DNA of 64,000 bases from Salinivibrio sp. ES.052 (lineage in GTDB: Bacteria; Pseudomonadota; Gammaproteobacteria; Enterobacterales; Vibrionaceae): NCBI RefSeq assembly GCF_900141775.1, contig NZ_FSRI01000001.1, positions 1,272,251 through 1,336,250 on the forward strand, given 5' to 3'. How positions within the stretch are numbered: the stretch's first letter is position 1; each line of letters opens with the position of its first letter. The notes under the pieces are model-generated. The model was not told the origin of the DNA. It ran no database searches and worked only from the letters and a program-made list of their open reading frames with translations. Positions 18,282 to 23,948 of the stretch are shown here, piece after piece. Both the position numbers and the translations under genes were made by a program.

Positions 18282-18524
18282 TATAACTCGTTCCCACGCT
18301 CCTGCGTGGGAACGGGAAGTAATGTCTAATGGCCCTGTCACATGATTGGCAGGCAGCGGTGAGACCGCAGTAAGAGACCTACTATATGTGTTTGCCGTAA
18401 GCAATGACTTAATGGCGGAAATTACAGAACGAAGTAGACGACTTTGTTGTTCGAGAGCATTGGCTGCTGGCGCAGCCAAAAAATGCTATTGCCTATTGAC
18501 CGGAGAAGGGCTCATATGTGTTAG
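18282..18524 (+). repeat. 243-bp repeat, copy 1 (likely IS110-type element end)
   Basis: Nearly identical (7 differences, about 97%) to 19803-20045. Starts TATAACTCG, carries a REP-like palindrome at its left edge, a small hairpin GCGGT-gag-ACCGC (18356-18368) and a stem around GGCTGC-tgg-CGCAGCC. The right edge joins the attC R'' box GTTAGAG of cassette 6 exactly as copy 2 joins the R'' box of cassette 4. Copy 2 is contiguous with the start of an IS110-family transposase gene, so the repeat is probably the far end of that element, possibly including its guide RNA. No long conserved reading frame. Confidence 0.8.
18289..18314. repeat. REP-like palindrome, copy 1
   Basis: CGTTCCCACGC (18289-18299) pairs perfectly with GCGTGGGAACG (18304-18314), loop TCCT. 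This palindrome is of the type spread by REP-associated transposases in many proteobacteria. A second identical copy is at 19810-19835, in both cases at the edge of the 243-bp repeat. Confidence 0.85.
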
Positions 18525-18526
18525 AG
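18520..18526 (-). other. attC remnant of cassette 6 (R'' box only)
   Basis: GTTAGAG on the + strand (CTCTAAC on the - strand) matches the 5' boundary of cassette 6. The rest of the attC is missing: the 243-bp repeat starts directly beside it, and no partner R' box with attC-like arms is found to the left. Confidence 0.7.
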
Positions 18527-19165
18527 TGCATTTTCGAACGTTACTTTTGCATCAAATTTACTAGTAACCATCTGATATAATTGACCATTAACAAAGTGCA
18601 GGGCGGCATAATCGCTAATACCATAGCACGGTACACTACTGTTATTTTGAGAAAAATCAGAAAATAAGTCAGCCTTTTCATCACTGCCATTAAAATGAGC
18701 TGAGGCTAGACCACGCACGAAACCCAAGCCGTCAATAACTGTATATTCTTCGGGATTGCTGTCGGTGATGCCTAAGTCAAACCAACATATAGCCCCTGCA
18801 CTCATACCGCACAATACCACACCATTTTCGTAGCATTCTTTGAGTATTGTATCTATGCCCCACTCTCGCCAGATAGCTAACATTGAACGGGTATTACCGC
18901 CCCCAACATATATAACGTCTTGCTCTTGCAGCTTTGTGCGCCAATTGGAGTCTGGTTTGAACAATGGAAAATGGGTCAAATTACAACTAAGACCTGAATC
19001 GTAAAAACGTTGAATAGCTTCTTCTGCGTCACCAGTTGCTGTAGAAAGATAGCAAACTTTTGGTTCACGCTTGCCCGTAAGATCAAGTGCATAACGGTCT
19101 AATTTGCTGTGTTTTTCTCCCATCATCCAACCACCACCGCCTAAAACAACGATGTGTTTATCCAT
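18521..19165 (-). CDS. Cassette 6: peptidase S51 (dipeptidase E-like) protein
   Basis: 214 aa, class I glutamine-amidotransferase-like fold of peptidase family S51. Seen: N-terminal HIVVLGGGGWMMG, QDVIYVGGGNTRSMLAIW near residue 85, and the nucleophile elbow GMSAGAICWFD near 120 with the presumed catalytic Ser, plus a His in ASAHFNG near 156. PepE of this family cleaves Asp-X dipeptides; members in cassettes and plasmids are common and their substrates unknown. The stop codon TAA lies inside the attC R'' box CTCTAAC, the normal cassette arrangement. Start preceded by AGGAG. Confidence 0.85.
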   Translation of the reverse strand: MDKHIVVLGGGGWMMGEKHSKLDRYALDLTGKREPKVCYLSTATGDAEEAIQRFYDSGLSCNLTHFPLFKPDSNWRTKLQEQDVIYVGGGNTRSMLAIWREWGIDTILKECYENGVVLCGMSAGAICWFDLGITDSNPEEYTVIDGLGFVRGLASAHFNGSDEKADLFSDFSQNNSSVPCYGISDYAALHFVNGQLYQMVTSKFDAKVTFENAL

Positions 19166-19193
19166 AAACTATACTCCTATGTTGAACTCGGCA

Positions 19194-19271
19194 CTCTAAC
19201 GCAGAGCTTTGCTGCAATTTTGGAACCGCGAAGCGGTGTAAAAATTGTCCGGCAACAGCGCATTGTTATGC
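19194..19271 (-). other. attC site of cassette 5
   Basis: 78 bases. On the - strand R'' is GCATAAC (complement of + 19265-19271) and R' is GTTAGAG (complement of + 19194-19200). Between them lie imperfect inverted arms (GCAATTTT / AAAATTG and CCGC-gaa-GCGG). R'' holds the stop codon of the cassette 5 gene. Its core differs from attC1 and attC3, so this cassette probably came from another array type. Confidence 0.85.
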
Positions 19272-19607
19272 GTTGGTTGCCGCTGCATAAATCCAACACT
19301 CTTTACCAGACTGTAGTTTTACAAGCATACGAACGTAATCATCAACTTCATAGTCATCGGCTTGCGCAAGCTCTACATCCGTAATCTCAAATACCGTGCC
19401 ACTCACCTCATCTGCCAAATTGCCAGTGAAACGTAAGATCGGATGGATAGCCTTGCCGCTTTCTCGAAGGACTCGTTCATCGGTAATTTCAATCTCACCA
19501 ACAATATAGCCTTGTACTATCTCTTTCTTGCCCAAAAGTTCACGGCCAAAATTGGCAATTTGAACTTCTTTTTGTTGCAGTGTTCCGTATGAGAATAATA
19601 GCGGCAT
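19266..19607 (-). CDS. Cassette 5: AIG2/gamma-glutamylcyclotransferase-like protein
   Basis: 113 aa. N-terminal LLFSYGTLQ is the substrate-binding YGxL motif of the GGCT/AIG2 fold; VSGTVFEITDVELAQADDYEVDDYVRM carries the conserved Asp/Glu-Tyr region. Family enzymes release 5-oxoproline from gamma-glutamyl compounds, but many short members are uncharacterised. Short for the family but complete. Start preceded by TAGGAGTAAC. Stop TAA is in the attC R'' box. Cassette spans from the boundary at 19640-19646 to 19194. Confidence 0.82.
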   Translation of the reverse strand: MPLLFSYGTLQQKEVQIANFGRELLGKKEIVQGYIVGEIEITDERVLRESGKAIHPILRFTGNLADEVSGTVFEITDVELAQADDYEVDDYVRMLVKLQSGKECWIYAAATNA

Positions 19608-19715
19608 TGTTACTCCTATTTTTGAGGGCTATTTGAAACGCATAACGAATGACATGGATTCCCCCTCTTGAAGATCTGCCACACTGAGGTGCGGCCTTTA
19701 ATACCGGAGGTAACC

Positions 19716-19848
19716 ATGTCTACTCAATTCTTTTGTGGCGTTGATCTCGCCAAGCACCACTTTTCTCTTCACGCGGTGGATAACCACGGAAAAGTCATTC
19801 TCTATAACTCGTTCCCACGCTCCTGCGTGGGAACGGGAAGTAATGTCT
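19716..19848 (+). pseudogene. IS110-family transposase, N-terminal fragment
   Basis: GGAGG five bases before the ATG opens MSTQFFCGVDLAKHHFSLHAVD, the N-terminal DEDD-type catalytic region of IS110 transposases (first Asp in GVDLAKHHF). Homology stops after GKVIL at about 19802; the remaining in-frame codons read through the REP palindrome and end at 19848-19850. It cannot make a working transposase. Confidence 0.85.
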
Positions 19849-20045
19849 AATGGCCCTGTCACATGATTGGCAGGCAGCGGTCAGACCGCAGTAAGAGACC
19901 TTCTATATGTGTTTGCCGTAAGCAATGACTTAATGGCGGAAATGACAGAACGAAGTAGACGACTTTGTTTTTCGAGAACATTAGCTGCTGGCGCAGCCAA
20001 AACATGCTATTGCCTATTGACCGGAGAAGGGCTCATATGTGTTAG
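19803..20045 (+). repeat. 243-bp repeat, copy 2
   Basis: Second copy of 18282-18524, seven substitutions. In the GCGGT-nag-ACCGC hairpin only the loop differs (GAG in copy 1, CAG here), so the stem is kept. It ends in GTTAG at the attC R'' box of cassette 4. The HAD gene of cassette 4 now reads into it and stops at 20007-20009. Confidence 0.82.
19810..19835. repeat. REP-like palindrome, copy 2
   Basis: Same 11-bp perfect stem and TCCT loop as at 18289-18314. It lies exactly where the transposase homology stops, so it may mark the deletion breakpoint. Confidence 0.85.
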
Positions 20046-20692
20046 GCGAACTATCTCACCCAGTACGTCAGCTCTTGTAACGACATAATCTGCGTCTCTA
20101 CTAACTACGTGCTGATCAGAAACAAGCATTGCATCAATGCCTACAGCTTTAGCACCCTGAATATCTGCAATTTCACTATCTCCAACCATTAATGTACTTG
20201 AAGCTCGAGCTCCTATGCTATTTAAAGCAAGTTGGAAGGCTTGCATACTTGGCTTTCTATAACCGATTTCTGACGACCAGATTACCCTTTCAAAATAAGG
20301 AGTAAGACCTCTATTATCGAGATCTTGCTGAAATATCTCTGTTTGCCCTGTGACATTGGACAATAAAATTAATCTTGTCCTTTGCGCACTTAATGTTTCT
20401 AGTAACGGTAATGTGTATTCATATAAGCCACCTCTGGATACAAAATCTGCAAGATGCTTCAAACCAATGCTTCTTTCAAATTGTACTCCATAACTGCTAA
20501 ATGCAAGTTGCCATATTGATTCCCAGTCAGGTTGAAAAATTTGACTAGGTATATAGAGCTCATGAATGTACTGTTCTATGAGTTTACCAATTTGGAAAGA
20601 CTGCTTTACATCTAATGTTTTTTTCAGCGAACTAGCAAGACATCCCATCCTGCATAGCGTATTACCATAATAAAAATTACTGTATCGTACAT
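20007..20692 (-). pseudogene. Cassette 4: HAD-like hydrolase, frameshifted in motif I
   Basis: The long frame (from 20648) has HAD motifs II (RLILLSNVTG), III (GYRKPSMQAF) and IV (MVGDSEIADIQGAKAVG) but lacks motif I. Just upstream, an ATG at 20692 with an AGG RBS reads MYDTVIF and then shifts frame; after the shift the other frame continues GNTLCRMGCLASSLKKTL. Restoring about one base (near 20670) would rebuild a normal MYDTVIFD-x-GNTL motif I. So the nucleophile Asp is lost by frameshift. The C-terminus (HMSPSPVNRQ) is encoded by the inserted IS repeat. A sequencing error at the shift is the alternative. Confidence 0.8.
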
Positions 20693-22239: not shown

Positions 22240-22316
22240 TTATAACGCCTCAATAACCGGCGCGCGCTTTTTGCGCGTCCGGCGCCAAAGGCGCGAAGTT
22301 AATTGATTTGTTAGTC
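22240..22316 (-). other. attC site of cassette 1
   Basis: 77 bases. On the - strand: R'' GACTAAC (holds the TAA stop of the TIR gene), ATCAATTAACT, inner arms with GGCGCC and GCGCGC, L' GTTATTGA, R' GTTATAA. The R'' is the exact complement of the attI-proximal boundary GTTAGTC at 23133-23139. Same type as attC3. Confidence 0.93.
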
Positions 22317-23111
22317 GTCTTGCTCACCAAATTCACGACGTATTGTTGCTAGTACATCGCCAAATGTTTCGCGAATAGAACCTCTTTGAAACCGAATTTG
22401 CTGGACACCATGGAGATTTGAAAACTCTTCCGCATCTTCCTCAAGTAAAACTATCGCGCGAGAAAACCCTAATCTTCCTTGAAATAGGCCTACTTCATGA
22501 ACTACGTTTTGCCTAGCGCGAATAGTACCGTCTTCCTGAGCATCCTCGCCTGTCATTACAAGAAATGCAATAGATGATTTATTGAGCATATCTTCAAGGA
22601 TATCTCGAATAGTATGGCCAGCTCTTGCACCAATTTCGTACGCTTCAATGTTTATACCATGCTGATCTTGAAGGTGATCCTTTAGATCTCTCCATGCGCT
22701 AGATCGTCCATGACCAATAAATACAGTTGGCTGGAAATGTCGATTGACTGATTCGTCTGCTGGTAGCATGCAACGCGCTACATTACTTTCAAGTGTTCCA
22801 AATATTTGTTCAATTTGATTGCGGTTAGGCAATGCTGCTACAACGCGACACCGTCGCCGAGAATAACTGACAATTAAATCGTAACCCGCCCCCAAAATTC
22901 GATAGCTATATTCATCTGCGTTACGGCGAATATCAGCAAACATTTCGGCCTCGTCATCGTACTCCCAGTGCTCTCCGTTAACTTCAGCTTCCAATATTTT
23001 AGAAAGCTTTTGACGATCCTCCTCATTTACTTCAGCTAGGAATGAATCACGTGCCTCAGAAAGAGCTCTTGGGTCAAAGCTAACGTCGTCAAAATATTTT
23101 GTTTTCTTCAT
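22311..23111 (-). CDS. Cassette 1: TIR-like nucleotide-binding protein, putative defence effector
   Basis: 266 aa, two parts. Residues about 1-125 are a charged, mixed alpha/beta domain of unknown function (EEDRQKLSKILEAE, ADIRRNADEYSYRILG). Residues about 128-260 match the TIR-like domain of predicted nucleotide-binding proteins (PF10137 type): TVFIGHGRSSAWRDLKDHL, IEAYEIGARAGHTIRDILEDML, AFLVMTGEDAQ, and NVVHEVGLFQGRLGF with the conserved Glu seen in NAD-cleaving TIRs, then AIVLLEEDAEEFSN. Such domains act in phage-defence systems by depleting NAD+. It is in first position next to attI, where expression from the integron promoter would be strongest. Defence role is inference. Confidence 0.8.
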   Translation of the reverse strand: MKKTKYFDDVSFDPRALSEARDSFLAEVNEEDRQKLSKILEAEVNGEHWEYDDEAEMFADIRRNADEYSYRILGAGYDLIVSYSRRRCRVVAALPNRNQIEQIFGTLESNVARCMLPADESVNRHFQPTVFIGHGRSSAWRDLKDHLQDQHGINIEAYEIGARAGHTIRDILEDMLNKSSIAFLVMTGEDAQEDGTIRARQNVVHEVGLFQGRLGFSRAIVLLEEDAEEFSNLHGVQQIRFQRGSIRETFGDVLATIRREFGEQDD

Positions 23112-23449: not shown

Positions 23450-23948
23450 ATGACCAAAAGCCCGTTTATGGCAAGCCTTCAGCACGAGATCAGGCGGCGA
23501 GGCTATGCGATCAAAACTGAGAAGAGTTACCTATACTGGGTGCGCCGATTTATCCTTTTCCATCATAAGCAGCATCCTACAGAGCTTAGTGACGAGGATG
23601 TAAAAACGTTTCTGTCTTATTTGGCGAATGCGCAGCAAGTTTCACCGAACACACAAAAGGTTGCCCTTAATGCACTGGCCTTCCTATACAACCAGTTTTT
23701 AAACCCACCGCTAGGTAAGATTGCGTAAAGCCTTAAACCGTGCGGTGCAAAAGGCCGGCATCACCCATAAGCACGTTACCTGTCATACGTTTCGCCATAG
23801 CTTTGCCACACAGATGCTTTTGGCGGGTTACGATATTCGCACCATTCAAACCTTATTGGGCCATACCGACCTCTCTACCACGCAGATCTATACCCATGTG
23901 ATCGGGCAACAATTTGCGGGCACGACAAGCCCAATGGATTTGCTTTAA
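23450..23948 (+). pseudogene. intI: Integron integrase, internally deleted and frameshifted
   Basis: Residues 1-90 (frame of 23450) are the N-terminal SAM-like core-binding domain of a vibrio IntI (EIRRRGYAIKTEKSYLYWV, FHHKQHP, NALAFLYNQ). After PPLG the frame ends at 23728; from 23721 another frame carries the C-terminus: [20 protein letters not shown] (box II His-x-x-Arg) and [16 protein letters not shown] (catalytic Tyr). Against a roughly 320-aa IntIA, about 150 central residues are gone, including the first catalytic Arg and the IntI-specific extra helix domain. Not functional. Strong RBS (GGAGGG) and LexA box remain. Confidence 0.92.

Follow-up and report, generated by a model that had tools for sequence, protein, structure and literature searches.

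Two direct repeats in a 64,000-nucleotide (nt) stretch of the Salinivibrio sp. ES.052 genome, referred to here as the window, are largely derived from a mobile element that inserts at attC, the recombination site of integron gene cassettes. As judged by sequence comparison, about 200 of the 243 nt of each repeat are the right end (RE_B) of an element of the IS1111 group, within the IS110 family of insertion sequences (IS), which we call IS-B. The second repeat is additionally fused to the left end (LE_A) of another IS1111-type element, IS-A. We consider it probable that the repeats consist of a repetitive extragenic palindromic (REP) sequence joined to the end of an RNA-guided, attC-targeting IS-B, and that the fused form originated by collapse of an attC site occupied by both elements (IS-A/attC/IS-B; slashes mark junctions) and was spread by recombination. 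The anatomy of the repeats, the insertion points, the covariation of the RNA, the joint changes of its loop and the element end, and the recurrence and mosaicism of the fused units can be read from the sequences themselves.

Repeat anatomy and parent elements

The repeats lie at 18282-18524 (copy 1) and 19803-20045 (copy 2), each 243 nt long and 97% identical to the other. The first-pass annotation had described twin 243-bp repeats with seven substitutions, both stopping at GTTAG, and a base-by-base comparison bore this out: there are exactly seven differences (copy 1 positions 18361, 18381, 18423, 18449, 18457, 18462 and 18482) and GTTAG are the last shared letters, beyond which the sequences diverge. 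It had also noted a hairpin that differs in its loop only, which holds for position 18361, in the loop of hairpin P1, but not for 18462, where the change in copy 2 disrupts the outermost base pair of hairpin P4. The 3.57-Mb genome contains seven full-length matches to the repeat (95-100% identity, best E 3e-127), so that it is not a chance resemblance, and among named sequences it is matched best by plasmid records of Salinivibrio, at 93-94% along most of its length. Five further matches in the genome cover the first ~30 nt only, which divides the repeat into two parts, a REP-like hairpin and the ~200 nt of RE_B. The hairpin, comprising the first ~35-40 nt (CGTTCCCACGCTCCTGCGTGGGAACG), occurs without the rest both in this genome and in the genus; like REP sequences it is a short G+C-rich palindrome dispersed in the genus, but here it is trapped at the LE_A/RE_B joint. 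IS-B proper ends at 18520 in copy 1 and 20041 in copy 2, reading ...CATATGTG, and the TTAG that follows belongs to the attC box, with a one-base ambiguity due to a G on both sides.

A link to intact IS110-family elements, whose absence the first-pass annotation had named as evidence against its proposal, was found in four relatives (Grimontia hollisae, Enterovibrio calviensis, Vibrio campbellii pVIBHAR and a Salinivibrio relative), where the RE_B stretch lies, at 81-96% identity, downstream of an intact transposase of ~347 aa of the DEDD type. The IS-A and IS-B transposases both match PF01548, PF02371 and NF033542 (IS-B domains taken from the Grimontia copy). In keeping with the IS1111 group, the Grimontia IS-B combines DEDD RuvC-like and C-terminal transposase domains with subterminal inverted repeats (left TGAGCCTTCTCC, right GGAGAAGGGCTCA; imperfect, and paired by eye) and a non-coding region of 456 nt from the transposase stop codon to the element end. 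In the window only about the 3' half of this region is retained, the element itself encodes no transposase beyond ~28 codons of IS-A, and no match to PF01548 or PF02371 was found in the whole genome. With copy 2 in addition fused to the end of another element, the repeats are not a working element here. The proposal that they are the guide-RNA end of an IS110-family element was thus largely right as to origin and RNA, but what is present is a remnant.

A scan of contigs found 181 relatives. Spread over many gammaproteobacterial genera, the 80 best of them, at 62-87% identity, were kept; 59 of these loci were taken on and gave 46 distinct right ends, after setting aside 11 without a located start or end and two duplicates. 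TTA directly follows the right end in 41 of the 46, and TTG directly precedes the ATA of the left end in all 22 left flanks inspected, several of which carry an attC-like stretch by eye (for example TAACGCC...CTTG/ATACTC). This flank pattern indicates that IS-B inserts at the /GTTRRRY side of attC. Some IS-B copies have internal deletions but retain RE_B (L124 5247-5548, L130 1984-2735 and L094 3652-4489), the first two also keeping the left end of IS-B by match; these are ordinary deletions within one element, found alongside the fused units described below.

The sequence at 19647-19807, which adjoins copy 2 and had been omitted from the first-pass annotation, corresponds to the left end of IS-A together with the first ~28 codons of its transposase gene; the IS-A protein is ~25% identical to that of IS-B. 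In relatives, the left end reads AAC/GAATGACATGGA in 13 of 13 aligned cases, and the right end, GGGGGAATCCATGTAG, is followed by the attC interior (one of ten aligned varies). Therefore IS-A enters attC at the RYYYAAC/ side, in the same orientation as IS-B at the opposite side, and both elements have the fixed place and orientation at one attC end that characterize IS1111-attC elements.

A covarying RNA and its candidate guide loop

To describe the IS-B non-coding region, 41 sequences were aligned: 38 of the 46 right ends (eight with long inserts were omitted), the loci L083 and L077, and the window copy. Because hairpins P1 and P4 were not recovered when RNAalifold was applied to the MAFFT alignment, 26 base pairs were named by hand and counted against shuffled and slid controls; drawn from the same sequences, this structure is somewhat self-favouring. 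Paired cells made up 89.1% of the structure, compared with 77.7% in shuffles and 25-40% when it was slid, and 19 of the 26 pairs changed on both sides (155 such cells versus 48 in shuffles). Further pair types barely exceeded the shuffles (43 versus 39.3, equalled by 20 of 500). By these alignment counts the 3' region of IS-B is a conserved, strongly covarying RNA, as the first-pass annotation had anticipated. At the gathering score, Rfam matched only tRNA in the window and no family in four whole IS-A or IS-B loci (L080, L084, L217 and L161).

Hairpins P1 and P3 are separated by a stretch of high conservation, CTATATGTGTTTG. The loop within it, ATATGTGTT, is identical to the junction of RE_B with its target, where the element end meets the invariant GTT of the box. 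The loop could therefore pair with the other strand of both: in its conserved form, AUAUGUGUU, it equals the end/target junction, so that its complement is AACACATAT, in which the AAC of the attC box is contained. Contrary to the expectation of a loop complementary to attC boxes such as CCTAAC, the loop carries not the complement of an entire box but the element end and the invariant GTT. Among the 50 of the 59 loci that were readable for both loop and end, the variable position was T in both in 44 and G in both in four, and two departed from the match. A distant IS-B-like subfamily (~32% protein identity) has a different loop, ATGGGTGAC, which is identical to its own end in all three loci (L232-L234; equalled by 37, 22 and 32 of 1000 shuffles). 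The targets of this subfamily are apparently different from those of the attC-type IS-B. In the non-coding region of IS-A, the TAACGAAT of a stretch CCTTCTAACGAATTAGG matches the left junction of that element, a weak match that 51 of 1000 shuffles equalled.

These loop and end findings fit the layout described for IS1111-group elements, in which the guide RNA lies on the right-end side and has segments, placed in loops, that match target and donor (PMC11187229; PMC11208160). From the covariation and the loop/end co-change we infer that an RNA of the seekRNA or bridge-RNA type is made from the IS-B region and guides insertion, presumably bound to the transposase. For the IS1111-attC elements ISKpn4, ISPst6, ISPa25 and ISPa21, a downstream non-coding region has been described that gives rise to a seekRNA with target-matching segments (PMC11187229; for ISPa21, PMC11616780). 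IS-B resembles this description in having a downstream non-coding region with a candidate guide loop, but at 456 nt its region is longer than the 82-96-nt peak seekRNAs given there, and the window copies differ from these elements in having only the 3' half of the region and no transposase. A Klebsiella pneumoniae match (H13) is a possible relative of ISKpn4; on inspection by eye, no attC could be recognized next to it. The bridge-RNA elements IS621 and ISCro4 share with IS-B the DEDD and C-terminal domains, and the C-terminal part of IS-B matches their structures, but the RNA of IS621 is at the left end whereas that of IS-B is at the right end and would be aimed at attC.

Doubly occupied attC sites and the origin of the chimeras

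In G. hollisae, IS-A is followed by an attC interior and then by IS-B at four attC sites, and the interiors differ between sites. This genome has ten matches to the attC type concerned, seven of them near full length, so the two elements may simply have filled the few sites available and coupling between them is not required to account for the double occupancy. Copy 2 belongs to a transposase-less chimera of ~395 nt, LE_A-REP-RE_B, that has no attC interior. Five such units are present in this genome, and copy 1 and one other repeat consist of REP and RE_B without LE_A. Twelve chimeras with the same REP joint, from five Salinivibrio-group genomes and a named S. proteolyticus plasmid, could be aligned, and chimeras without REP were found in Salinivibrio and other Vibrionaceae genomes. 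On the IS-A side the breakpoints fall near 137, 171-181, 254-277, 413 and 477 (about five junctions in Vibrionaceae), so the chimeric form arose several times, although the 254-277 group may share one origin. As chimera loci were chosen because both ends matched, their number is not a frequency. Most of the 23 chimera rows keep AAC/GAAT on the left (21 of 23) and the right end with TTA (21 of 23). No attC interior was found in any of the 44 flanks of 22 chimeras, by a test that detected it in four of four IS-A controls (self-matches included); the internally deleted chimera L136b is one of the 23, whereas this test and the breakpoints rest on the other 22.

The 12 REP-type chimeras are also mosaic. 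Of the 465 pairs that their 31 informative sites form, 207 are incompatible, and counts of the pairwise homoplasy index (PHI) type for near sites were 5/2000 and 15/2000. Furthermore, two chimeras carry an LE_A block common to another IS-A lineage, and one left cassette is common to three genomes that each have a different right cassette. Homologous recombination would explain both the mosaicism and the shared left and differing right cassettes. None of four comparisons of left-end and right-end distances was significant (79 to 669 of 1000). Another chimera, at L136 2815-3033, has a shortened right end in which the guide-loop motif runs directly into the target (CTATATGTGTTAG); it looks like a recombination between two copies of the ~9-nt loop/end repeat, and its flanks equal those of the L078 chimera.

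According to the origin that we favour, the IS-B RNA, with a loop that spells the end of the element followed by the invariant GTT, would direct insertion to the /GTTRRRY end of attC, and IS-A and IS-B would enter the same site from its two ends (RYYYAAC/IS-A/attC interior/IS-B/GTTRRRY). Deletion of everything between the outer ends would then leave the LE_A...RE_B chimera. Such a collapse is suggested by the apparent absence of attC interiors, the recurrence of chimeras and the existence of doubly occupied sites. Because one REP joint is common to many places, a route of spread is also needed, and the collapsed form may have reached other attC sites by homologous recombination with resident IS-A or IS-B copies.

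Several observations weigh against this explanation as a whole. A 9-nt match between loop and junction is reached by 9 of 1000 shuffled sequences and is modest taken alone, the loop/end match is departed from in L184 and L220 and not clear by eye in the 54%-identity member L230, and the four G/G members may represent one evolutionary event. Among the chimeras, AAC/GAAT is absent from two of 23 (L093 and L141) and the right end with TTA from two (L087 and L124a). The attC-interior test found only one of five IS-B controls and is thus weak for short sites, and no place was found with a doubly occupied attC in one relative and a chimera in another. In addition, the PHI-type count at the widest setting was not significant (374/2000), and the distances of two left-end parts (LE1-LE2) are correlated (44 of 1000).

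Alternatively, the chimera could be a mobile, non-autonomous miniature inverted-repeat transposable element (MITE), moved in trans by the transposase and RNA of IS-A or IS-B. Bacterial MITEs are described in PMC10969869 as short, multi-copy, transposase-less and built from IS ends, and as places for homologous recombination. The chimera resembles them in its make-up, most copies retain both outer ends, and within the genus a single joint recurs in 12 copies set between many pairs of cassettes; cargo between IS1111 ends can be moved in trans, as stated in PMC11187229. However, the chimera does not have a single parent, its left end being from IS-A and its right end from IS-B, which differ in their subterminal repeats; the target interior is missing, and the left and right segments show no joint evolution. 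Moreover, a single transposase should leave an attC interior on one side, which the flanks, in a test of limited power, do not show. We therefore regard this explanation as unlikely. A better match to an unrelated MITE had been named beforehand as evidence against an IS110 origin, and this came half true: the unit is MITE-like, yet it is built from IS1111-type ends. That the repeat is nothing but a REP or MITE sequence, with no relation to IS110, deserves hardly any credence. Its first ~40 nt are indeed a dispersed REP-like hairpin and no transposase domain was found in its own genome, but the idea is refuted for the other ~200 nt, which in intact IS1111-type elements form the 3' end and contain a covarying RNA.

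It is very doubtful that the chimeras are independent units, excised and inserted jointly by two different RNA-guided transposases that would each recognise a single end and a single attC half, with the attC interior swapped out in the process; were this the case, the IS-A/IS-B pair would act as an RNA-guided system of two components for replacing the recombination sites of integrons. The position of the chimera exactly between two box halves, where an attC is expected, and the different neighbouring gene at nearly every copy might instead point to a substitute attC, spread within gene cassettes by the integron integrase. This is very unlikely, as the attC interior has been lost in favour of ~400 nt of IS sequence and the integrase gene in the window is broken. 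Lastly, IS-A and IS-B stand in tandem four times in G. hollisae at similar spacing, as if they were two genes of one composite element and the chimera its deletion derivative. We find this highly improbable: they are separated by an attC interior whose sequence varies between sites, IS-A also occurs alone and is then followed by attC interior, and no IS-A match was present in 73 IS-B loci outside Vibrionaceae (some cut by contig ends). A single element with two transposases is thereby largely refuted.

Integron setting and implications

Positions of the repeats, junctions, RNA features and cassette genes in the window
Feature	Position	Strand	Remark
REP-like hairpin, copy 1	18287..18319, palindrome 18289-18314	+	no LE_A upstream
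RE_B copy 1, candidate guide loop at 18384-18392	18320..18520	+	sequence comparison
GTTAGAG box, right junction of copy 1, start of the S51-peptidase cassette end	18520..18526	+	
RYYYAAC-type box GCATAAC (core box CATAAC), start of neighbouring cassette, left chimera junction	19640..19646	+	
LE_A: IS-A left end and first ~28 transposase codons	19647..19807	+	ATG at 19716
LE_A subterminal repeat ATGGATTCCCCC	19654-19665	+	
REP-like hairpin at the LE_A/RE_B joint	19808..19840, palindrome 19810-19835	+	
RE_B copy 2: last ~200 nt of IS-B	19841..20041	+	3' half of non-coding RNA region and element end
RE_B subterminal repeat GGAGAAGGGCTCA, copy 2	20023-20035	+	
Hairpin P1 of RNA, copy 2	19877..19889	+	alignment columns, covariation
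Candidate guide loop ATATGTGTT, copy 2	19905..19913	+	identical to RE_B/target junction
Hairpin P3 of RNA, copy 2	19915..19937	+	alignment columns, covariation
Hairpin P4 of RNA, copy 2	19983..19998	+	outer pair broken; alignment columns, covariation
GTTRRRY box GTTAGGC, right junction of copy 2	20041..20047	+	
Cassette genes: S51 peptidase, gamma-glutamyl cyclotransferase-like, HAD-like hydrolase, in that order	18524-19165, 19269-19607, 20010-20648	-	

The integron integrase gene beside the array is broken (window 23468-23942): it matches model positions 2-88, with one stop, and 241-314, and the middle is missing. As the cassettes that carry a chimera lack a normal attC, the cassette array in this genome is probably frozen. 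A gene next to the array (22311-23111, - strand) encodes a CAP12/Pycsar-type Toll/interleukin-1 receptor (TIR) domain (PF10137, E 1.5e-25) and has PADLOC matches to PDC-S35 and PycTIR; it is possibly a phage-defence effector.

What stands out more is that two RNA-guided elements are paired at the opposite ends of attC and that these pairs have repeatedly collapsed. No earlier description of this was found in the titles and abstract openings of open-licence papers. IS-B appears as a widespread attC-targeting IS1111 lineage whose long, covarying guide-RNA region has no Rfam 15 match in the loci tested, and its natural loop/end co-changes could help to decode its targeting. Invasion of attC from both ends, followed by its erasure, would remove the site needed for cassette movement, and frozen arrays, here beside a broken integrase gene, may represent a route of integron decay.
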